In this document: in pieces, positions 10,809-48,532 of the stretch
Numbering within the stretch: position 1 is the first letter of the stretch
Layout: each line of letters begins with the position of its first letter
Assembly (NCBI GenBank): GCA_009838625.1
Contig: VXRG01000103.1
Coordinates: 1 to 64,000 of the forward strand
Source: Caldilineaceae bacterium SB0664_bin_27
GTDB taxonomy: Bacteria; Chloroflexota; Anaerolineae; Caldilineales; Caldilineaceae
Reading direction: 5' to 3'
Length of the DNA: 64,000 nucleotides
The notes under the pieces: generated by a model
The model's input: the letters and a program-made list of their open reading frames with translations, nothing else
The model's database searches: none
Told to the model about the DNA's origin: nothing
Program-made: the position numbers and the translations under genes

Positions 10809-12209
10809 CTAGGAAAGAGCCTCCTCCTCTGTCACGATCCGTTGTCTGCTTGGCCGCGGCGGGGCCGGGTCGATCGCGGCCGGCGCCTCGCCCGCTTCGC
10901 CCATAAGGCGGAGCAGACGCTCCCGCAGCACGTCCGCGGCGCGGCGATGGGACTCCAGGCCGGCGAGATTGGTCAGCTCGTATGGATCCGCTTGCAGATC
11001 GTACAGATACTGCTCCACATAGCGGTCAGAACTGGCATGTTGCCTTCCATCCGTGTCCGGCGCGGTGACGCTGTACTTCCAGCGCTGCGTGCGCACGGCC
11101 CGCCCCACCTGCGATTCGCTGATCTGAATCAACGCATCCTGCGGCCAGTCCGCCGACCGGCCTCCGACCAGCGGCGCCACTGAACGGCCCTGCATCTGCT
11201 CCGGCACCTCCAGGCCGGCTGCGTCTAGCAGCGTCGGCGGCAGGTCCACCAGGCTGACGATCTCCCGCACTTCGCCGCCGCCGAAGAAGCCGGGGCCGGT
11301 CAGGGCGGTGGGCAGGCGCACCGACGCTTCATGGCAGGATCGTTTATATTCGTCGTTGCGCGTCTTGAAGTGGCAGCCGTGGTCGGTCGTGTAGAGGACG
11401 ACTGTGTTCTCGTCCAGCCCCAGGCTCTTCAGGGCGTCGAGCAGGCGGCCCAACGCCTCGTCCAGCCGCTTGATCATGCCCCAATAGCCGCCCAGATGCT
11501 GCTGGGAGGAGCCGCCCAGGGCGAGCAGGTCCGGCGGCGTCCAGCGGCCGGCGTAGCGTTCGCGGTAGCCGTCGGGCGGGGGATAGTCGTCAAGATGGTT
11601 CTGATGATGCGGCTCTATATAGGATAGGAAGAGAAAGAACGGGTCCTCCTGGTGGTCGTCAACGTAGCGGATGGCTGCGTCCGTCAGGGCGTCCACACGA
11701 TAGCCGGGCAGTTTGACGGCCTCGCCGTCGTTGTCATACATGACAGTATCGTAGGCGTCCGAGGTAAACTCCAGCACGTTGGATGCCAGCCAGCTCTGGT
11801 AGCCGCCCCGATTCGCTTCAGGCACAGGCCCGGTGATCCCCCTGTCCGCCAGATGCCACTTGCCGATATAGCCGGTATCGTAGCCCGCCTCCCCGAAAAA
11901 GTGTGCGAGCGTGCGCGCATCCTGCGGCAGAGGGATGGCGTTGCGATAACAGCCGGTGGTGGTGGCGTACATGCCGGTCTGCAGACAGGAACGGGCCGGG
12001 CCGCAGACGGGCTGGCAGGTGACGGTGGTGTGCAGGTGGGTGCCCTGCCGGGCCATGCGGTCGAAATTGGGTGTCAGATCGAGCGGGTTGCCATGCACGC
12101 CGGTTGAATCCCAGCGCTGCTGATCCGTGAAAAAGACGATCACATTGGGTCTATCGGACGTTGCTTGCGCTGCCGCCTCGCCGCGGGCGTGCGCTGAAGA
12201 GCGGGGCAT
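10809..12209 (-). CDS. Type I sulfatase (arylsulfatase family)
   Basis: This 466-residue protein has the alkaline-phosphatase-like sulfatase fold. PNVIVFFTDQQRWD at residues 21-34 supplies the first metal-binding aspartates. The signature CGPARSCLQTG begins at Cys69, which a formylglycine-generating enzyme would convert to the catalytic residue (C-x-P-x-R form). TGYIGKWHL and VVLYTTDHGCH are the other metal and substrate motifs. There is no signal peptide, so it is probably cytoplasmic. GGAGGAAG precedes the ATG. Together with the nearby polysaccharide genes it suggests use of sulfated glycans. The substrate cannot be read from sequence. Confidence 0.88.
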   Translation of the reverse strand: MPRSSAHARGEAAAQATSDRPNVIVFFTDQQRWDSTGVHGNPLDLTPNFDRMARQGTHLHTTVTCQPVCGPARSCLQTGMYATTTGCYRNAIPLPQDARTLAHFFGEAGYDTGYIGKWHLADRGITGPVPEANRGGYQSWLASNVLEFTSDAYDTVMYDNDGEAVKLPGYRVDALTDAAIRYVDDHQEDPFFLFLSYIEPHHQNHLDDYPPPDGYRERYAGRWTPPDLLALGGSSQQHLGGYWGMIKRLDEALGRLLDALKSLGLDENTVVLYTTDHGCHFKTRNDEYKRSCHEASVRLPTALTGPGFFGGGEVREIVSLVDLPPTLLDAAGLEVPEQMQGRSVAPLVGGRSADWPQDALIQISESQVGRAVRTQRWKYSVTAPDTDGRQHASSDRYVEQYLYDLQADPYELTNLAGLESHRRAADVLRERLLRLMGEAGEAPAAIDPAPPRPSRQRIVTEEEALS

Positions 12210-13363
12210 CGTTATCTTCCTCCGGAGTGTGACTCAGACGGTATTCGATCCGCCCTCGCGAGCGGGGACGCGGGTAGCCGGTCGTTCGATGGATGGATTG
12301 AATCGCCCGGCGCCGTATGGAAAGGCATTCTATCCCATCACACTGGGGAACGCTATCGGCCACTGCAGTGGGTGCAGTCCATAATGCGGGTGAGATTCAG
12401 GCTGCCTCTGGGGAGTTATACCGGGAGCCACAGCCCGCTACTCTGGAGCATCACAAATCTGTGATGCACCCAAAAATTGGACGCGTTTCATATAAATCGG
12501 CATGCAACCAGGCTTGGGGCGTTCCCTTCCCGCTCAATTCCGAAAACCTGTACAAAACCTGTAACTCTTCGGCAGACCACCAACCGCGAACCACCGCATT
12601 TCCGCGCCGATTTTGCAGCCAAAATCAGCTCGAAAACACACTCCCGCGACACCTCCATTTCCCCCGATTTTTGCATGAAAGTGATGCATCCCTATTGATG
12701 CACTGCTTTCGCACCGCTTTTCGCCCTATTTCTCTCTGGTCAGGACCCCAATATCCAGTAATGCATCACTTTTTGGGAAAATGCAATACTTTCGCGGCCC
12801 CTTTCGGCCCCCCGCCGCACCGCCGAAAGACCACCCCTCAGCCATCGAAATGACGTACCGGCGTCCCCTGCAAGAGCTGTACAGAACGGCAAAGTCCGCG
12901 TATCCCCGCCCGCCCCCGCAAGGCAACACTCTCATATGAGTGCATCACATATTAGTGGCGAATTAGTGGCGAACTTTCATATATCTCAACTGACGACACT
13001 GCCTCGGCCAGCCCGCGCTCCGATCTCCGGCGGAGGCAACGGCAGTTCTCTCTCCTCCCCAATCTCTTCTCGTCTTTGCGCCTGCCCTGTATCTCTCCAG
13101 GAGCCCTTGACCAGTTTCACCCACCGCTGGCTTCGATTCTCTGCAGGACTACTCACAGCCCAAATCCGGGACGTCCCCTGCAGCGGTCAGTGGTCAGCGG
13201 CTGGGCAACTGACTGTGCATGGAGGTGAACAGGTCGTTTCTTGAGATTTTCGAAGGTTCACCCCAAATTTTGGACTGCATCTTCTGCAGTTGAAGCGGCT
13301 GCCGGCTGGCGGTGGAGCGGATGGTTGCAGGACGGATTGAATAGACCAGTTGGCGTCTGAAGT
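12210..13363. other. Gene-poor region with repeated TGATGCA heptamers
   Basis: I can support no gene in this 1.15 kb. It holds a perfect hairpin at 12448-12467, a 15-base motif (TGTACAAAACCTGTA, 12549-12563) shared with the upstream region of the LRR gene, and five exact TGATGCA/TGCATCA heptamers at 12462, 12682, 12696, 12762 and 12941. The open frame at 12317-12853 has no ribosome site and no protein-like pattern. The region is upstream of the sulfatase and may carry its control sequences. Confidence 0.55.
12448..12467. repeat. Perfect inverted repeat upstream of the sulfatase
   Basis: GCATCACA and TGTGATGC flank the four bases AATC. The right half overlaps a copy of the ATGCACCC motif also seen at 7110. 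It could be an operator or a small hairpin. Confidence 0.55.
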
Positions 13364-13392
13364 TTGGTAGATTGGGAATGGACGTTTATACT
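13364..13392 (+). promoter_or_regulatory. Predicted promoter of the MacB-like export operon
   Basis: TTGGTA (13364-13369), a 17-base spacer and TATACT (13387-13392) predict a start near 13399, giving a leader of about 200 bases before the first gene. The leader contains no other convincing gene. Confidence 0.5.
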
Positions 13393-13594
13393 TCTCTGTT
13401 AACTGACGTAACGATGTCATTTGCCATTACACAGCACCATTGCCCGCCTTTCGTTCTCGTCGCCGTCATATCGCAATCTGTTGCGGGACGGGGGACAGAT
13501 CCTTCGCCAGGCACTGGAGTTTTCCTGTGCCTTATGCATCCCCATCTCTGCGTTTGGAACAAATCCTGTGTTTCAGAGAAGAAAAAATGATCTA

Positions 13595-36162: not shown

Positions 36163-37251
36163 ATGCCGATTGAAACTGCGATATGGCGAATTCAGGAAGA
36201 CTCAGAACTGCAGTCCCTATCCCTAAGTGGAATGGACTATGAACAACGCCTTCAGGATATTATTGCTGCCGACATTTCTATCGTTGACCCCCGCCTTATG
36301 GTAATCGGTCAGGAAGTTGCTACGACTCATGGAGGTCGTATTGATATTCTCGCAATAGATGCGGACGGTAATTTGATAGTAATTGAGCTAAAACGCGGTC
36401 AGACGCCTAGAGAAGTCGTGTCTCAGGCCCTCGATTACGGTTCCTGGGTTCGCAACCTGCCATCGGAGGAAATCGCCGATACTTTTATTGATTACCAGCG
36501 TGACGTTCTAAAGAAAGAAACTCAGGTAGGAATAAACGATGCTTTCCTAACGAAGTTTAACTTCATCCCTGACGAACTTAACTCCTCTCATCGACTCGTG
36601 ATAGTTGCCGAGGAACTCGACTCGTCGACTGAGCGTATCGTTAAGTATCTCCAAGAAGTATATGACGTTGACATCAATGTTGTGCTTTTCCGTACGTTTC
36701 AAGATGAAGACCGTCTGTACCTGACCCGTACTTGGCTAACTGAACCAGATTTCCTTGCAACCGAATTATCCTCTTCGTCAATGTCTAAGGGGGAATGGAA
36801 TGGAGAGTATTACGTCTCCTTCGGGGAGGGAGATAGCCGAAGATGGAGTGATGCAAAAAAGTACGGATTTGTAAGCGGCGGGGGCGGAGAGTGGTATGTG
36901 AAAACTCTAAGAAGGCTTCAACCCGGGAACCGAATATGGGTATCTGTGCCTGGTAAAGGGTACGTCGGAGTAGGGGAGGTTCTGGAGCCTGCCGTACCCT
37001 ATAATCAGTTCAAAGTCGATCAACAGGGCATTCCCACTCCCATTACTGAACTTGATTTTGAGGCACCGGGGGCATTCGATAAAGAACACAACGAGCATTT
37101 TGTCACCGTCAATTGGATAAAGACAGTCGATCTTCAGAAAGCGGTAAGAGAACGAGGCTTCTTTGGAAACCAGAACACGGTGGCTCGGCCACGCGACCCT
37201 AGGTGGTCTGTTACCGTTGAACGCCTAAAGACCCTCTGGGGAATCATTTAG
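36163..37251 (+). CDS. NucS/DUF91-like PD-(D/E)XK nuclease with extra C-terminal domain
   Basis: The product has 362 residues and its DNA is visibly AT-richer than neighbouring genes. Residues 57-92 hold GGRID with Asp61, IELKRG with Glu75-x-Lys77, and Gln88 to Tyr92 in SQALDYGSW. This is a complete PD-(D/E)XK active site with the QxxxY helix, as in the catalytic domain of NucS/EndoMS. The C-terminal 150 residues (EWYVKTLRRLQPGNRIWVSVPGKGYVGVGEV) resemble a PUA/EVE-like nucleic-acid-binding fold, but this is uncertain. GAGGAAAGGA precedes the ATG. It is probably a transferred nuclease with a defence or repair role. Confidence 0.75.
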   Translation: MPIETAIWRIQEDSELQSLSLSGMDYEQRLQDIIAADISIVDPRLMVIGQEVATTHGGRIDILAIDADGNLIVIELKRGQTPREVVSQALDYGSWVRNLPSEEIADTFIDYQRDVLKKETQVGINDAFLTKFNFIPDELNSSHRLVIVAEELDSSTERIVKYLQEVYDVDINVVLFRTFQDEDRLYLTRTWLTEPDFLATELSSSSMSKGEWNGEYYVSFGEGDSRRWSDAKKYGFVSGGGGEWYVKTLRRLQPGNRIWVSVPGKGYVGVGEVLEPAVPYNQFKVDQQGIPTPITELDFEAPGAFDKEHNEHFVTVNWIKTVDLQKAVRERGFFGNQNTVARPRDPRWSVTVERLKTLWGII

Positions 37252-37444: not shown

Positions 37445-38272
37445 ATGAAACTGATCGTTTTCAGCAAGATGCTCCAGGAAAAGAGTATTGCCGAGCTGAT
37501 CGAGTTGGCGCAGAAGCACGGCTACGACGGCTATGACCTGGCGGTGCGGCCCGGCCACCCGGTCAACCCGGACAACGCGGCCGAAGCCCTGCCGCAGGCC
37601 CAGGTGCAGATGGAGCAGGCCGGCCTGCAAATCGGCATGGTCACGGGCAACTTCGATCTGCTCACGGCCGACCACCCCTTGGCGGAGCCGCTGCTGGCCG
37701 CGATGGACAGCGCGGACGTGCGGCTTCTCAAGCTGGGCTATTTCAGGTTCGAGCCGCAGACGATGGACTACTGGGAGCAGGTTGAGAGCGTGAGGCGGGC
37801 CTTTGCCGCCTGGGAGAAGCTGGCCAGCATCTACAACGTCAAGATCTGCTATCACACCCACTCCGCCTACTGTATGGGCCTCAACGCGGCCGCGCTGATG
37901 CACCTGCTGCGCGACTTCGATCCCGCCTACCTGGGCGCGTATCTCGACCCCGGTCACTTCGCGGTCGACGGTGAACCGTTCGACTTCGGCCTGGCGATGA
38001 CGCGCGAGCATCTGAGCATCCTCTCCCTGAAGGACGTCCTTGTCGAGCGTGTTGAAAAGAACGGCCACGGCGCTGCCAAACCGCGCTGGGTCGACGCCGG
38101 CGACGGGATCGTCGACTGGACCGCCGTATTCAACGAGCTGCGCCGCATCGGGTATGACGGTTTCCTCTCCATCCACTGCGAGTATGACATCGACGAAGGT
38201 GCGGACTGGTTCGAAACCTTCGTCCGCGAGGTGGCTTTCTTCCGCAAGATGAGAGAGAGGGGCGAGGAGTGA
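37445..38272 (+). CDS. Sugar phosphate isomerase/epimerase (TIM barrel)
   Basis: This 275-residue xylose-isomerase-like barrel has KLIVFSKMLQEKSIAEL, ASIYNVKICYHTHSAYCMG, YLGAYLDPGHFAVDGE and LSLKDVLVERVE. Its GC content is that of the surrounding catabolic genes, although it stands between two AT-richer insertions. AGAAGG precedes the ATG. Confidence 0.82.
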   Translation: MKLIVFSKMLQEKSIAELIELAQKHGYDGYDLAVRPGHPVNPDNAAEALPQAQVQMEQAGLQIGMVTGNFDLLTADHPLAEPLLAAMDSADVRLLKLGYFRFEPQTMDYWEQVESVRRAFAAWEKLASIYNVKICYHTHSAYCMGLNAAALMHLLRDFDPAYLGAYLDPGHFAVDGEPFDFGLAMTREHLSILSLKDVLVERVEKNGHGAAKPRWVDAGDGIVDWTAVFNELRRIGYDGFLSIHCEYDIDEGADWFETFVREVAFFRKMRERGEE

Positions 38273-38324
38273 GGAAAGGGTAGGCCTTTTGCCCTACATA
38301 GATTGAAGAAGGAGGATTTAACAG

Positions 38325-39443
38325 ATGATAATCGGTCTTGAAGTAGAAAGGCTGAATAACTGGATTGATGCCAAACTGGAATTCAATAAAGACCTGAACA
38401 TCATAACCGGAAAGAACGGGTCGGGAAAAACGACTCTACTGAAGTTACTCTGGTACTTGATCAGCGGAAACCTTGAAAGGATAATCTTTGAAATTCCGTT
38501 CAAGAGTGTTTCAGTCAGAGCAAGTTCGTTTTCCTTGTCAATTGATCAAGTAGAATCTAGCAAGGCTAAGCTTATTTGTAAGTCTTCCAACATAAGGGAA
38601 ACTACTATAGATTTTGAGATACCATTACGAAATGAGGATGTTGAACGGATATACGAATTAGACCGACGAATCGCCCGAGAAATGGAGAGTAGCCTCTTTT
38701 TCCCAACATTCAGAAGAATTGAGGGAGGGTTTGCCGGGTTTTCTATCCCCGGTACAGATTTGGAAAGACATTATTCGAGTCGGTCCATGTGGAGATCTAT
38801 GGCTAGTGAAATGGAGGAGCTTCAAGAGGCGATTTCACAACTTTCAGAAAACGTATCGGTCTTTGACCACAAGTTCATCGCTTCAATTTCAACGCTAGAT
38901 ATTGTCGAACTCCTGCGACGAAAATACACTGAGATTTCTGATGAAACTGATAAACTTCATGTGCAGTTATCGAAGGGCATTACACGAAAAATTTCTGATA
39001 CAAGGGGACGCGAGCCTGAGGATTCCGTATTGGACGACATCCAAGAACGTGTTGAGCAGGTTACTCAGAAGCGCGAGGCGTTATTCCGGCCATTTTCAGT
39101 CTTGACTGACCGAATTCATGACTTCTTGCAGTATAAAGGCATACGGGTCACACAAGGTATCACGCTTGGAGAAGCTGAGGAGGCGATTGCATCTGACAAA
39201 CTTTCTGCAGGAGAGAAACAGTTGCTGAGTTTTCTGTGCTACAACACGTTCAGCGAAAATGCCGCCATATTTATAGATGAGCCGGAGTTAAGCCTTCACA
39301 TCGACTGGCAACGGCTCCTGCTCCCTACGCTACTTGAACAGGGGACGAACAATCAGTTCTTCATTGCCACTCATTCACCCTTCATCTACTCCAAGTATCC
39401 TGACAAAGAGATTCTGTTGGGAGACGATCGCGGAGCTAATTGA
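38325..39443 (+). CDS. ABC-type AAA ATPase, AriA-like (PARIS-type defence)
   Basis: This 372-residue protein has the ATPase head of SMC/RecF/OLD-like proteins: Walker A GKNGSGKTT at 29-37, the signature LSAGEKQLLSFL near 291-302, Walker B AIFIDEPELSLH near 316-327 and the H-loop in IATHSP near 347. A helical, coiled middle section (about 150-260) separates the halves. There is no TOPRIM domain in the same chain; the next gene, overlapping by one base, supplies one. That two-gene layout is that of PARIS (AriA ATPase and AriB), in which the ATPase senses a phage protein and releases the nuclease. AAGGAGG precedes the ATG. The DNA is AT-richer than its neighbours. Confidence 0.75.
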   Translation: MIIGLEVERLNNWIDAKLEFNKDLNIITGKNGSGKTTLLKLLWYLISGNLERIIFEIPFKSVSVRASSFSLSIDQVESSKAKLICKSSNIRETTIDFEIPLRNEDVERIYELDRRIAREMESSLFFPTFRRIEGGFAGFSIPGTDLERHYSSRSMWRSMASEMEELQEAISQLSENVSVFDHKFIASISTLDIVELLRRKYTEISDETDKLHVQLSKGITRKISDTRGREPEDSVLDDIQERVEQVTQKREALFRPFSVLTDRIHDFLQYKGIRVTQGITLGEAEEAIASDKLSAGEKQLLSFLCYNTFSENAAIFIDEPELSLHIDWQRLLLPTLLEQGTNNQFFIATHSPFIYSKYPDKEILLGDDRGAN

Positions 39444-40192
39444 TGTCGACGCAGAAACCTGTGACTGTGGACGAATTTGTCGCTTCACTCCGTCACTCCG
39501 ACCTGCCAACAATCATTGTTGAAGGCAAAGAGGACATGCCCATCTACCGCTGGGTAGAAACCCAATTTGGAATCGGAACCGCAGATGTGCTTGAAGTAGG
39601 AGGTAGAAGGAAACTGCTTTCGATTTTCGAAAGGAGACAGGAATTCCCTGATTTGCCGGTTGCTTTTGTCGCAGACAAAGATATGTGGCTGTTTTCGGGG
39701 ATTCCCTCAGACTACCGTGAGGTCATTTGGACAGAAGGCTATAGCATTGAGAATGACCTGTACGCGGGTGCTGATCTGGAGAATCTCCTTGAGGCCGAGG
39801 AGGCGCAGGAACATCAACAGGTGCTGGATGCGATTGTCGAGTGGTTTGCATTCGAAGTTGAAGAGTGCTTAGACTGTAAGCCCTATGAGGTCAAGATTCA
39901 TAGCAATCGAATTGTCCCGCTTGGACAGACACAGATAGACGGAGATTTCCGTAAGTGCCGCGGCTTTCGTCCTCCTGGAGAGGAGATCCATCGACAGATC
40001 AGAGAAGCATATCAACTCAAGCTGCGAGGCAAACAGCTTTTCGAAATGTTGGTGCGCTTTCTCAGCGCGCCTGACAGGAAGAGCAAGTATAGCTACGACA
40101 ATCTGAGAGAGATGGCGTTCAAGATGCCCCCTTCTCACTCCTTGATGAATCGATTGATGCAAGAGATCGAGCAGGCAATAACTAATCAATGA
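39443..40192 (+). CDS. DUF4435/TOPRIM-type protein, AriB-like (PARIS-type defence)
   Basis: The start ATG shares its A with the TGA of the ATPase gene (TGATG), so translation is coupled. The 249-residue product has the TOPRIM pattern: Glu27 in IIVEGKEDM, then Asp78-x-Asp80 in FVADKDMW, and the DUF4435 segment TEGYSIENDLY. TOPRIM proteins cut nucleic acid with magnesium. In PARIS, AriB is the toxic nuclease released on infection. A retron- or OLD-related ATPase/TOPRIM system is the other reading. It is shorter than I would expect for AriB, so this may be a distinct subtype. Confidence 0.73.
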   Translation: MSTQKPVTVDEFVASLRHSDLPTIIVEGKEDMPIYRWVETQFGIGTADVLEVGGRRKLLSIFERRQEFPDLPVAFVADKDMWLFSGIPSDYREVIWTEGYSIENDLYAGADLENLLEAEEAQEHQQVLDAIVEWFAFEVEECLDCKPYEVKIHSNRIVPLGQTQIDGDFRKCRGFRPPGEEIHRQIREAYQLKLRGKQLFEMLVRFLSAPDRKSKYSYDNLREMAFKMPPSHSLMNRLMQEIEQAITNQ

Positions 40193-40261
40193 TCCGTGTC
40201 GCGGCCCACCAACGCATCGCAGTAGATCAATAAAGTTTCAAGCTGAAAGGATAGCACTCTC

Positions 40262-41101
40262 TTGCCTTACCCATACCCACTCGTATTCAGCACACTCGGC
40301 TCGCCGGGCTGGTCGCTCGAACGCGCCGCGGAGCAGGCCGTGGCCGACGGTTACGCCGGGCTTGAAGTCCGCATCTTGGACGGCCAGGTAATCTCGCCGC
40401 ACCTGCCGACTGAGCGCCGCGCCGCCATCCGCAGCCTGATGAAGCAGCACGGGCTTGTCATTGCCGGCATCGGCGCGTCCACACGCTTCTCCTCTCCTGA
40501 CGCCGACGATCGCGCCAAACATCTGGCCGACCTGCGCGCCTACCTGGCCCTGGCCAGCGACCTGGAGGTGCCGATCGTGCGCACCTTCGGCGGCGGTCCT
40601 TCCGAGGGCCAGACGATGGACGACGTGATCGATCTCGTCGCCGCTAGCCTGGCGGAGGCCGCGCCCGACGCCGAACGGAACGGCGTCACCATCTGCCTGG
40701 AGACCCACGACGCCTTCTGCCGCGGGCAGGAGGTGGCGGGCGTACTGAACCAGGTCGATTCTCCCCGGGTCAAAGCGGTCTGGGACGTGCATCATCCCTT
40801 CCGCATGGGCGAATCGACCGAGGATACCTGGAACTACATCGGCGCGCGCCTAGCCCATATCCACATGAAAGACGCCATGCGCCGGGAGGACGGCAGCTGG
40901 CAATTGAAGCTGATGGGCGAGGGCGAGGTCCCCTGTCGGGAGATCCTTCACCTGCTCGCGGCAAAGGGCTACGACGGTTATATCTGCGCCGAATGGGAGA
41001 AGGCGTGGCACCCTGAGGTCGAGGAGCCGGAAATCGCCATCCCCCAGCACGCACAAGTTCTGCGCCAGTGGATGGCTGAGGACGCGGCTGCGAACGGCTA
41101 G
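40262..41101 (+). CDS. Sugar phosphate isomerase/epimerase (TIM barrel)
   Basis: This 279-residue barrel starts with TTG at 40262; AAAGGA lies upstream. GVTICLETHDAFCRG carries the Glu ligand, VKAVWDVHHPFRMGE the Asp and His, and LAHIHMKDAMR and GYICAEWEKAWHPEVEEP the remaining ligands. It resumes the high-GC catabolic run directly after the defence pair and is followed by a hydroxyacid dehydrogenase gene. Confidence 0.83.
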   Translation: MPYPYPLVFSTLGSPGWSLERAAEQAVADGYAGLEVRILDGQVISPHLPTERRAAIRSLMKQHGLVIAGIGASTRFSSPDADDRAKHLADLRAYLALASDLEVPIVRTFGGGPSEGQTMDDVIDLVAASLAEAAPDAERNGVTICLETHDAFCRGQEVAGVLNQVDSPRVKAVWDVHHPFRMGESTEDTWNYIGARLAHIHMKDAMRREDGSWQLKLMGEGEVPCREILHLLAAKGYDGYICAEWEKAWHPEVEEPEIAIPQHAQVLRQWMAEDAAANG

Positions 41102-44395: not shown

Positions 44396-47300
44396 TTAGC
44401 GATCCCGGGGCGTAACCACCTGTACGTTATGAGCATTGGTTGCCGTTACCAACGGTCCGTAAACCCATCCAGTCCGATCCCCAATTTTAATCTGCCACCA
44501 GTCGCCAAGACCAGAGCTTTTGCCGGTGATTTCGTACCATGCTCCGGCCTCGGCTGTTCCTATGACAGCGAAATTGGTACCAGGGCCTTCCCTCACGTTT
44601 ACTGGACTGTCGATCGTCACCCAGGGCGTCATGGATGTCAGTGTAGCTGTAGGGGAAGCTTGGTCCACAGAGACTACGTACCCGGCCGGCGCGTGCGACC
44701 TTGGGTGTACGTTTGCTACATCTACGAAGTACATCCCAGTGTAAGGCGCTTTGAAGACAATTCTTGCGTCAAGCCCGAACAGGCCTCCACCACTGTTCTC
44801 ATCTCTAATCCAAACCCCTAACGTCTCTCCCTGATAGCCCCATACAGTGAGTTGGGGGTCGGCCAATATTGACCGCACCACGATCTCAACCGTCTCATTT
44901 CTCACCAAGTCTAAGATAAAGTAATCATCATTGGTTGGAAAGTCGATGTTGCCATGAAGAATCTGTCCAACCTGGATCTGCCTACCTCGGTCTGGGTCAT
45001 CGAATTGAACAAGACGGTGGCTCCCTGCCATGGTAGTCTCTTCTAAGACCTGTGACAGAATCAAGAAAAGAGGCCCATAGCGTCTCACAACAAAGGAAAA
45101 CGAACTGGTCTCGACATCTGCGAGTGTGTTGCCATAAGAGTCGACGATCTGGAAACTGACATCGTCCCTGCCGCTGAACTCAATCTCGAGCGCGGTTCCG
45201 GGCGGTTCGTTGATGATGTAGGCATCTGCATAGTTGTGCGGCGTCAGTCTATAGCGAAGGGAGCCGCCCTCCATATCGAATTGTCTCTTGCCAACGCCGG
45301 ACGGATCCCTGCCAGCAATCAGTTGACGGACGCGCGGCAGGAGGTCGGCGGACGAAGCGGCAAGTCCGAACTCCCCGAAAGCCCTAAAGCCACTGATTCC
45401 GATCACAGCGCCCGTATCGGAGACAAGCGCGCCGCCACTTTGCCCTCCTGTGATCGCAGCATCGGTCTGGAAAAAGGTGATACCGACCGGCTCCCACTCT
45501 CGCTTGCGTGACAGGATTCCCCGAGTCATCGTTGTTTCCGGATAGGCTTCGACCTCGGCAGGATAGCCTATCAGGTACATCTCGGAGCCAGTTGCCATGT
45601 TTTCTCCGTCAAGCAGAGGCAGGGGCTCCACAGGGGCAGAAATTGGACCAAGTACGGCTAAGTCCACCAGCAGGTCCCAGCCTACCACGGGCACGCCCCT
45701 GAAATCGGTACCATCCGGGAACACGACGCTTGCCGCGTTGAACGGCCAGACCACGTGGGCGTTCGTTACTACGTATCCCCCATCGACGAGCACGCCACTG
45801 CCAGTGCTAGCAGCCGTTTCAATGTAGGCGATGGCCGGCGAGACCATTTCAAAGATTCGAGCCGAAGAGACCTGCGCAGTAGTTGCCCCAGATGTCGAGG
45901 TTGTCGAAGCTGTGGCGAAGCAGAAAGGCAACTCGAGATCCTCGAAGTCATTTCCCTCAACGTTTTCCCAAATGGCAGGAACACACCCTCCCAAGCGGTT
46001 ACCGGAAAGATAGAGTTGTTCGAGCTCAGAGAGTCTGCCCAATTCTGGTGGGATATCGCCACTCAGGTTGTTGTCTGCGAGGCCTAGCCCGGTCAGTTGC
46101 GTGAGGTTGCCCAACTCTGATGGCACAGACCCTGTTAACCGATTGCCCCAGAGGCTCAGCATTGCCAGTTTTGCGAGGTTGCCCAATTCTGAGGGAATTG
46201 CCCCACTCAATTGATTCGAGTGGAGAAACAGGTTTTCAAGGTTACTAAGATTGCCAAGTTCTGTCGGAATGGTCCCGCTCAGTTCGTTTTGCCCAAGATA
46301 CAGATCAGTCAGATTGGTAAGTCTGTCCAACGTTGGGGGAATCGGTCCACTCAATTGGTTCCCCGTAAGACTTAGCCATTCCAGTTTGGTTAGATTGCCC
46401 AATTCTACCGGAATTTCCCCCGTCAATTTATTCGAATTGAGGCCCAGATCTTCCAGGTTGGTTAGATTACCCAGTTCAGTGGGAATCGCTCCGCTCAACT
46501 GGTTGTTCCCCAGATACATCACTTCAAGGTTGGCAAGCTTGCCTAATGCTGGGGGAATAGTTCCGGTCAATTCGTTGCCCCAGAGGCCTAACTCAAACAA
46601 GCTGGAAAGGATGCTCAGAGCCGGCGGAATTGTACCGCTCAACTGATTCCTTGAAAGATACAAGGCTTCCAGGTAGGTAAGATAGCCCAATTCTGATGGA
46701 ATCGTACCGTTCAATTCATTTTCCGAGAGGTCCAGTTCAATAACGCGATCGTTCCCGTCTGTGATGACACCAAACCAGGTCCCGATTGGCCGGTTGCTCA
46801 GCCAATTCCGGTTGCTCACCCAGTTGTCGCCGTCAGTGGCTTGATAGAGCGCGATCAACGCGTATTCGTCTGTGCAAATTGGCAAGTCAACTTCATCGAG
46901 ATCGCTGTCCTCAACATCCTGCCATACCTCGGGCACGCAACCGGTTAACCGATTGTCTGCGAATCGAAGCCACTCCAGGCCAGAGAGCTGGTTGAGTTCC
47001 ACCGGGATTTTGCCACTCAGCCTGTTTACATGGAGGGCCAAACCTCTCAGACTTTCCAGGTTGCCTAATTCTGGAGGAATTGCGCCGCTCAGCCGATTCC
47101 CCGAAAGAGCGAGCAGTTCCAGTTTGGAGAGCCCACCCAATTCTGGCGGAATCATTCCCCCTAACGGGTTCCAAGCAAGCGCAAGGATAGCCAGATTGGA
47201 AAGCTTGCTCAATTCTACCGGAATCGAACCACTCAGCTGATTCGAGTAGAGATACAGTAGTGTTAATCTTGAAAGGTTTCCCAGTTCTGGTGGAACCGTC

Positions 47301-48532
47301 CCGCGAAGCTGGTTTATTGCGAGATCCAGCTCTTCAAGTTTGGTAAGGTAACCTAATTCTGGCGGAATCGTGCCACTCAACTCATTTTCTGAGAGATACA
47401 GTCCGATAACGCGACCACTATCGTCAACAGTGACCCCGTACCACTCGCCAATTGGCCTTCTGCTCAGCCAGTTGTCGTTTTCAAGCCAGTTGTCACCGTC
47501 CGTGGCTTCGTAAAGCGTAACCAAGACGTCTCTATCCGAACAGAACTGCAAACCAACATCGTCCAGATCACTGTCCTCAATGTCACGCCAAATCTCGGGC
47601 ACACATCCACTCAATTGGTTGCCTGCGAGGTATAATTCTGCAAGTCCAGAAAGGTTCTCCAGTTCTGGCGGAACAGTTCCGCTGAACTCGTTACCCCAGA
47701 GGCCCAAGCTTTCCAGATTCGTGAGGTTGCCCAATTGTGACGGGATGGAACCGCTCAGCTGATTTCCTCCCAGTTGCAACTGTGTCAAATTGGTGAGATT
47801 TCCTAGTTCTGGCGGGATCCTTCCATGCAACTGGTTGCCCCAAAGGACCACTCTTTCCAGATTAGAGAGATCGCCCAATTCTGACGGTATCGTCCCGTTG
47901 AGTCGGTTGTCCGAGAGGTACAACCATACAAGGTTGGTGAGTCTGCTGAACTCTGATGGAATCGAACCGCTAAACTGATTGCCAAAGAGTACCAGCCATC
48001 CCAGGTTGTCGAGTCCTGCCAATTCTGTCGGAATCGTCCCTCGCAGATTGTTGTTCATCAAGGCCAACACTTCCAGATTGGTGAGGTTACCTAATTCTGG
48101 TGGAACAACGCCACTCAACTGGTTGGAGTATAGGGATAGCGCTACCAGGTTGGTGAGGTTACCCAACTCTGACGGAATCGGACCGCTCAACTGATTATGT
48201 GAAAGGTCCAAATCTTCCAAATAAGTAAGGTTGCCCAGCTCTGATGGAATCGTGCCGTTCAGCTCGTTTTCCGAAAGATCCAGTTCAACGACGCGGCCGT
48301 TTCGATCCGTTGTGACGCCGTGCCAGGAATCGAGCGATGCATTGGAGAGCCAGTTCCTGTTGTTCGTCCAGTTGTCGCCGTCGGTATCCTGGTAGAGCGC
48401 CACTAACGCGTCCCTATCAGAACTCTTGGCCGTAGCGAAAGGTGACGACGCATAGACCTCAGGGCCACTCAGCCCAGCGATCAAGGCACACAAAACAAAG
48501 ATGGCAATCAGGACTCTGAAAAATGACTTCAT
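44396..48532 (-). CDS. Giant secreted LRR - trypsin-like protease - SH3b protein
   Basis: The product has 1378 residues. A signal peptide (residues 1-29) is followed by three leucine-rich-repeat solenoids of plant type (24-residue LSGxIPxELGNLTNLExL units). Each opens with an ALxxLYxxTDGDNW cap (from residues 41, 336 and 558) and closes with a GCVP cap (309, 531 and 849). Residues 888-1075 are a Deg/S1-type serine protease with the triad His926 (TNAHVV), Asp957 (VDLAVL) and Ser1032 (GGQSGGALV). A prepeptidase-like beta domain (about 1185-1290) and an SH3b domain (about 1303-1362) complete it. It probably recognises and cuts targets at the cell surface. Its DNA is AT-richer than its neighbours, which may mean transfer. 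Confidence 0.88.
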   Translation of the reverse strand: MKSFFRVLIAIFVLCALIAGLSGPEVYASSPFATAKSSDRDALVALYQDTDGDNWTNNRNWLSNASLDSWHGVTTDRNGRVVELDLSENELNGTIPSELGNLTYLEDLDLSHNQLSGPIPSELGNLTNLVALSLYSNQLSGVVPPELGNLTNLEVLALMNNNLRGTIPTELAGLDNLGWLVLFGNQFSGSIPSEFSRLTNLVWLYLSDNRLNGTIPSELGDLSNLERVVLWGNQLHGRIPPELGNLTNLTQLQLGGNQLSGSIPSQLGNLTNLESLGLWGNEFSGTVPPELENLSGLAELYLAGNQLSGCVPEIWRDIEDSDLDDVGLQFCSDRDVLVTLYEATDGDNWLENDNWLSRRPIGEWYGVTVDDSGRVIGLYLSENELSGTIPPELGYLTKLEELDLAINQLRGTVPPELGNLSRLTLLYLYSNQLSGSIPVELSKLSNLAILALAWNPLGGMIPPELGGLSKLELLALSGNRLSGAIPPELGNLESLRGLALHVNRLSGKIPVELNQLSGLEWLRFADNRLTGCVPEVWQDVEDSDLDEVDLPICTDEYALIALYQATDGDNWVSNRNWLSNRPIGTWFGVITDGNDRVIELDLSENELNGTIPSELGYLTYLEALYLSRNQLSGTIPPALSILSSLFELGLWGNELTGTIPPALGKLANLEVMYLGNNQLSGAIPTELGNLTNLEDLGLNSNKLTGEIPVELGNLTKLEWLSLTGNQLSGPIPPTLDRLTNLTDLYLGQNELSGTIPTELGNLSNLENLFLHSNQLSGAIPSELGNLAKLAMLSLWGNRLTGSVPSELGNLTQLTGLGLADNNLSGDIPPELGRLSELEQLYLSGNRLGGCVPAIWENVEGNDFEDLELPFCFATASTTSTSGATTAQVSSARIFEMVSPAIAYIETAASTGSGVLVDGGYVVTNAHVVWPFNAASVVFPDGTDFRGVPVVGWDLLVDLAVLGPISAPVEPLPLLDGENMATGSEMYLIGYPAEVEAYPETTMTRGILSRKREWEPVGITFFQTDAAITGGQSGGALVSDTGAVIGISGFRAFGEFGLAASSADLLPRVRQLIAGRDPSGVGKRQFDMEGGSLRYRLTPHNYADAYIINEPPGTALEIEFSGRDDVSFQIVDSYGNTLADVETSSFSFVVRRYGPLFLILSQVLEETTMAGSHRLVQFDDPDRGRQIQVGQILHGNIDFPTNDDYFILDLVRNETVEIVVRSILADPQLTVWGYQGETLGVWIRDENSGGGLFGLDARIVFKAPYTGMYFVDVANVHPRSHAPAGYVVSVDQASPTATLTSMTPWVTIDSPVNVREGPGTNFAVIGTAEAGAWYEITGKSSGLGDWWQIKIGDRTGWVYGPLVTATNAHNVQVVTPRDR
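45923..48421 (-). repeat. Tandem 72-base LRR coding repeats in three blocks
   Basis: About thirty 24-codon repeats are arranged in three blocks separated by cysteine-containing caps. The blocks share their opening cap (DGDNW), so the gene grew by duplication of whole blocks as well as single units. Confidence 0.85.

Follow-up and report, generated by a model that had tools for sequence, protein, structure and literature searches.

A compact PARIS gene pair at a fixed, allelically variable site in a Caldilineaceae sugar operon

PARIS, as characterised in E. coli, combines an ABC-type ATPase, AriA, with the DUF4435 TOPRIM nuclease AriB. In this system, an AriA hexamer sequesters three AriB (PMC12409363), and a phage protein frees AriB from the AriA ring, whereupon AriB cuts tRNA as a dimer and translation ceases (PMC12409363, PMC11455837). 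The activating phage protein can be an anti-restriction protein, and the tRNA is cleaved in the anticodon stem. Defence requires intact ATPase motifs (PMC9122126), the AriB mutant E26A is inactive (PMC12409363), and positive charge has been proposed for the sensing of Ocr by AriA (PMC11455837). The founding paper detected PARIS by a match to AAA_15 (32 bits) or AAA_21 (27 bits) beside a match to DUF4435 (27 bits) (PMC9122126). Two lysines of AriB, K60 and K64, have been proposed to grip the anticodon loop of the tRNA. The solved E. coli pair (PDB 8ux9, 8v45-8v49), with an AriA of 464 aa and an AriB of 308-316 aa, sits in a P4-satellite hotspot. A similar logic of ABC ATPase plus TOPRIM domain is found within one chain in OLD and in the Gabija protein GajA, and fused PARIS (AriAB) also carries both of its domains on a single polypeptide. 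Septu and certain retrons share the ATPase superfamily through PtuA, whose partner in Septu, PtuB, is an HNH nuclease.

We analysed a stretch of 64,000 nucleotides (hereafter the window) from a 5.35 Mb assembly, the named close relatives of which are Caldilineaceae MAGs (Chloroflexota), presumably sponge-associated as judged from the isolate names. A first-pass annotation, made from the sequence alone, had proposed a PARIS-like ATPase/TOPRIM pair inside a sugar catabolism cluster of this window. We established computationally the gene pair, its family, the folds and intact catalytic residues of its proteins, its fixed site, the replacement of its alleles and the defence inserts in its neighbourhood.

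Sequence and fold of the gene pair

The first gene (38325..39443, + strand) encodes a 372-aa AriA-like ABC-type ATPase, the putative sensor, as assigned from the ORF, Pfam, PADLOC, a PDB search and an AlphaFold model, and the second (39443..40192, + strand) encodes a 249-aa AriB-like protein, the predicted DUF4435 TOPRIM nuclease effector. The start of the latter overlaps the ariA stop as TGATG and is the ATG within it; a TTG three bases earlier would make a protein of 250 aa. The two are separate ORFs, not a single ATPase-TOPRIM chain. The ATPase contains Walker A GKNGSGKT (aa 29-36; 38409..38432, + strand), the ABC signature LSAGEKQ (aa 293-299; 39201..39221, + strand) and Walker B IFIDE (aa 315-319; 39267..39281, + strand; IFIDEPE when extended), together with the switch histidine in THSP. 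Both the full motif set and the overlapping DUF4435-like TOPRIM gene had been read in the first-pass annotation, and both readings stood.

We then compared the proteins with profiles and known structures. In Pfam, the ATPase matched AAA_15 (80.2 bits, 3e-22) and AAA_21 (77.8 bits, 2e-21) and the partner matched DUF4435 (30.7 bits, 3.4e-7), all above the curated cut-offs. The ATPase thus far exceeds the detection thresholds of the founding paper, and the partner passes its own marginally, backed by its fold and by its partner gene. The profile search that had been proposed at first pass indeed returned the two PARIS proteins: PADLOC ranked AriA first for the ATPase (2.2e-27), with PtuA profiles scoring well too, and gave AriB as the sole match of the second protein (4.8e-8). 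In the PDB, the best sequence match of the ATPase was AriA (2.3e-21), while GajA and retron PtuA stood at about 4e-7. The DUF4435 protein as a single query gave no meaningful sequence match in the PDB; a 40-row AriB profile found the solved AriB at 1.5e-8, and one restricted to the nine AriBs from Caldilineaceae missed it. Identity to the E. coli proteins is about 20-24% for AriA and only about 13% for AriB. Furthermore, a second gene adjoined all 12 of the plasmid and phage ATPase matches that we opened, annotated as DUF4435 in nine cases and as hypothetical in three. As a separate observation, one PARIS pair on a Paraburkholderia plasmid is directly followed by an extra DUF4435 gene (L088 from 3879).

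AlphaFold models, built from alignments of 42 (AriA) and 40 (AriB) sequences, reached a mean pLDDT of 84.8 and 91.3, respectively. Foldseek placed AriA chains at all of ranks 1-16 for the AriA model, and AriB chains at ranks 1-2 for the AriB model, the sole two matches with E < 0.001. With VIA-align 2, the AriA model aligned best with 8ux9_B (Z 27.4, rmsd 3.7 A, 321 residues), followed by PtuA as the next family (Z 17.9), and the AriB model with 8v46_D (Z 14.8, rmsd 3.8 A, 231 of 249 residues), followed by OLD (Z 9.5). Structure comparison, the other check that the first-pass annotation had suggested, thus gave AriA and AriB as the best PDB matches of the respective models. Since the matched region covers essentially all of both proteins, they are trimmed versions, not fragments, of the E. 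coli counterparts, with which they share gene order, domain families and folds. The earlier remark that both proteins are short also proved correct, as they are about 90 and about 60 aa shorter than E. coli AriA and AriB.

The catalytic positions are equivalent in the two systems, with the Walker, signature and TOPRIM residues intact in the alignment. E319 of Walker B falls on AriA E393, which is mutated to Gln in PDB 8v49, and G29, N31, G32, G34 and K35 of Walker A are invariant in 42 homologues. In AriB, the TOPRIM glutamate E27 (39521..39523, + strand) aligns with the catalytic E26 of E. coli AriB; E27, D78 of the DxD motif D78-K-D80 (39674..39682, + strand) and E103 are invariant across 40 AriBs. 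Of the two proposed tRNA-gripping lysines, K60 aligns with K57 of the window protein, which is mostly conserved, whereas K64 aligns with I61, a non-conserved position occupied by lysine in no congener. Since the K64 position is not conserved, the tRNA targets may differ from those of the E. coli enzyme. Taken together, the sequences, the folds of both proteins and the partner gene bear out the proposed AriA-AriB pair, with best matches in PARIS and not in another ATPase/TOPRIM family, and the window pair is a PARIS system. The kind of system and its core mechanism are already known; what is new is this member, which is of interest as part of a natural set of variants.

A fixed slot with exchangeable alleles

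Unlike the E. coli system in its satellite hotspot, the window pair lies in a chromosomal sugar operon. It occupies a slot between two host genes for xylose-isomerase-like TIM barrels, TIM1 on the left (37445..38272, + strand) and TIM2 on the right (40262..41101, + strand). The same-strand neighbours encode TIM barrels, a GFO/IDH/MocA oxidoreductase, GH88, SDR, a D-2-hydroxyacid dehydrogenase and a methyltransferase; the opposite strand carries ABC transporter components not far away. The sugar catabolism setting named in the first-pass annotation was thus confirmed by the flanking same-strand genes and by recurrence of the slot in congeners, and so was the AT-richness of both genes, as the GC content drops to 0.41-0.50 across 38250-40250 from 0.62-0.69 in the sugar genes on either side. 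Elsewhere in the window (44396-48532, - strand), a 1378-aa protein combines many leucine-rich repeats with a trypsin-type protease-like region and an SH3-like end.

Among 17 genomes of the genus, TIM2 is present in all, and wherever the contig extends far enough, the genes stand in the order GH88-SDR-TIM1-TIM2. Eight of the 17 carry the pair, one of them twice, and at all nine loci it lies between TIM1 and TIM2, oriented with the operon, with both frames open; the two genes overlap or nearly overlap. This recurrence of the two-gene unit at one place argues against a chance pairing. In seven pair-less congeners the empty site is a TIM1-TIM2 gap of 42-44 bp, in the outlier G004 the gap measures 71 bp, and in G013 the 3.3 kb present there instead include a fragment resembling the beginning of a type IIG restriction enzyme. 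One congener with an empty slot (G003) has a different, longer PARIS-like pair of 429 and about 299 aa (L010, G003:C578). We rejected contamination or misassembly as an origin of the insertion, since one of the copies sits in a chromosome assembled as a single contig (G016, 5.95 Mb, matching OX638330.1). In the window, the pair is spaced from its neighbours by about 52 and 70 bp, and a search for a promoter private to it gave matches not above chance; expression from the operon transcript is therefore likely, and the pair probably rides on it.

The alleles in the slot do not follow the flanking genes. In G008, G009 and G014, the flanks (SDR, TIM1, TIM2 and HacDH) are 88-94% identical at four-fold sites, and yet the AriAs share no more than 55-63% amino-acid identity. 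The reverse holds for G011 and G011b, with flanks at 51-65% at four-fold sites, AriAs at 88% and AriBs at 76%. In topology tests, in which the groups were chosen after the identities were known and the p-values are hence descriptive, the flank data rejected a G011+G011b+G009 clade (p-AU 3e-18), the AriA data rejected G008+G009+G014 (p 1.5e-5), and the AriB data rejected both groupings (p 5e-4 and 6e-6). On the flank tree, the presence of the pair needs at least six changes and the AriA class needs five. In addition, the AriA of G009 is near that of G011 while its AriB groups elsewhere, which indicates that AriA and AriB are not always transferred together. G011 is probably a mixed bin, so a G013-like species may be the source of G011b; the mixing leaves the comparison of loci unaffected. 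The slot is thus a fixed, allelically fluid site for PARIS in the genus.

Within AriA, variation is concentrated in the middle. Across the nine Caldilineaceae AriAs, mean identity is 83% in residues 1-60 and 92% in residues 301-360, whereas residues 61-180 (38505..38864, + strand), the most variable stretch among congeners, fall to 25-62% per 30-aa block, with many gaps. The pattern is consistent with a conserved ATPase engine and a lobe that diversifies, the latter being a candidate trigger sensor. The middle of AriA has no net positive charge (K+R 32, D+E 38), and we saw no simple electrostatic correspondence to the Ocr site that has been proposed.

Other defence genes insert into the same operon. 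A PDC-S11-like gene with a NucS_C nuclease domain (36163..37251, + strand; PADLOC 2.3e-134) occupies the slot between SDR and TIM1 and is another AT-rich insert, separated from the downstream PARIS pair by one gene; PDC-S11 is found in the same slot in G012 and elsewhere in G011 and G015. The SDR-TIM1 slot of G014 holds a 670-aa AIPR/AbiU-like protein (L059, about 10897-13530, - strand), and G011b and G013 carry genes for DAC-type sensor-domain and P63C-domain proteins after TIM2. At two related loci (L061 1818-6778 and L060 10802-13208), DACNG/DACNH/DAC (577 aa) and P63C (391 aa) genes stand beside a partial extra copy of TIM2. With PARIS, PDC-S11, AIPR/AbiU and other inserts at adjacent sites, the operon is, as judged from its own inserts alone, a small defence hotspot, and absence of the pair from defence islands in relatives, which would have spoken against the first-pass proposal, was not what we found. 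The same genome also encodes a fused AriAB of 556 aa with ATPase and DUF4435 domains (L001:586-2253, G000:C103; PADLOC AriAB 1.4e-52), only distantly related to the window pair, so that the host carries two unlike PARIS systems. Eight N6_Mtase matches were found in this genome and no PglZ match, and by these profiles a first-line restriction system in the host is plausible.

A compact lineage of PARIS

In a tree of 30 AriA sequences, the window protein falls into one supported clade (100/99) together with other Caldilineaceae, a Poribacterium, an Alteromonadaceae, Lichenicola (plasmid) and an Acinetobacter, and an independent tree of 29 AriBs recovered the same 13 rows (99/96); outside this clade, many branches are long and poorly resolved. 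In the clade, AriA measures 355-408 aa and AriB 248-263 aa; the other sequences range over 415-514 and 272-346 aa, respectively. The first-pass suggestion of a distinct subtype therefore held in part: the short proteins do form a supported clade, cleanly separated by AriB size, but AriA lengths nearly overlap those of ordinary PARIS, and compact PARIS is a lineage, not a proven subtype.

Prophage-like contigs L097-L103 encode ATPases of 368-416 aa with, where found, a partner of 245-256 aa, and are likely further members of the compact lineage, assigned by similarity outside the tree. From the ORFs as read, the L097 locus has repressor-like and tail-like genes for neighbours, and the L101 locus an integrase-like one. 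AriB-based searches of phage records and viral contigs gave no match, whereas the AriA-based search did find relatives. In the compact poribacterial pair (L074 2859-4741), AriA nests among the Caldilineaceae alleles, with 60-67% identity to the window's class, and AriB is clearly more distant at 46-53%, a mismatch that suggests partner exchange between phyla.

Proposed mechanism and alternatives

The explanation that we favour, and consider very probable as a whole, is a PARIS system of the compact lineage in a fixed slot with allele turnover. Its ring assembly, release, tRNA cleavage and abortive outcome are modelled on the characterised E. coli system. By this analogy, AriA would most likely form a ring that keeps AriB inactive, and binding of a phage protein to AriA would release AriB, which would dimerise as a two-metal TOPRIM nuclease and cut host tRNA, so that translation would stop before phage maturation. 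The pair appears to have entered a short gap of the sugar-catabolism operon, in the orientation in which the operon is transcribed. Within the genus, this gap is a fixed site where PARIS alleles are acquired, lost or replaced, probably via recombination in the conserved genes on either side.

Could the pair instead belong to the OLD/Gabija/Septu world of ATPase-TOPRIM defence, merely resembling PARIS and cutting DNA? AAA_15/AAA_21 ATPases and TOPRIM domains are indeed common to OLD, GajA and retron effectors, PtuA profiles score well, and AriB keeps a residual similarity to the OLD TOPRIM domain. However, the solved AriA and AriB win clearly in the fold comparison, in which OLD and GajA score lower against both window proteins and PtuA is the next-best fold after AriA, and the locus encodes two separate proteins, the second of the DUF4435 family, instead of the fused chain of OLD/GajA or the HNH partner of Septu. 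We thus regard this reading as very unlikely. Slightly less probable still is domestication of the pair as a regulator of the sugar operon, with defence lost; the position and orientation fixed in one operon across species would suit such a role, but roughly half of the species whose operon is otherwise intact lack the pair, presence and absence have switched repeatedly on the flank tree among divergent alleles, the catalytic residues are intact, and the same lineage occurs on a plasmid and in prophages that have none of these sugar genes.

The least probable reading is that of a decaying, non-functional relic of a mobile island, to which the foreign base composition and the lack of an integrase or mobile element beside the pair in the operon would correspond. 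Open frames at every one of the loci and invariant catalytic positions argue against decay, as does the conservation of the protein ends while the middle diversifies. As an extension of the favoured explanation, we put forward tentatively, and as a rather doubtful possibility, that the slot is a polymorphic immune locus, in which recombination via the conserved flanks would repeatedly exchange whole or partial AriA/AriB alleles, the lobe would track phage triggers, and expression would be tied to sugar supply.

The locus shows defence genes housed inside a metabolic operon with no visible mobile element. PARIS is extended by a compact lineage common to Chloroflexota and Poribacteria MAGs, a proteobacterial plasmid and prophages, which offers smaller proteins for structural work. 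Furthermore, the many alleles at one site make up a natural set of AriA variants, which could reveal which part of AriA senses phage proteins.
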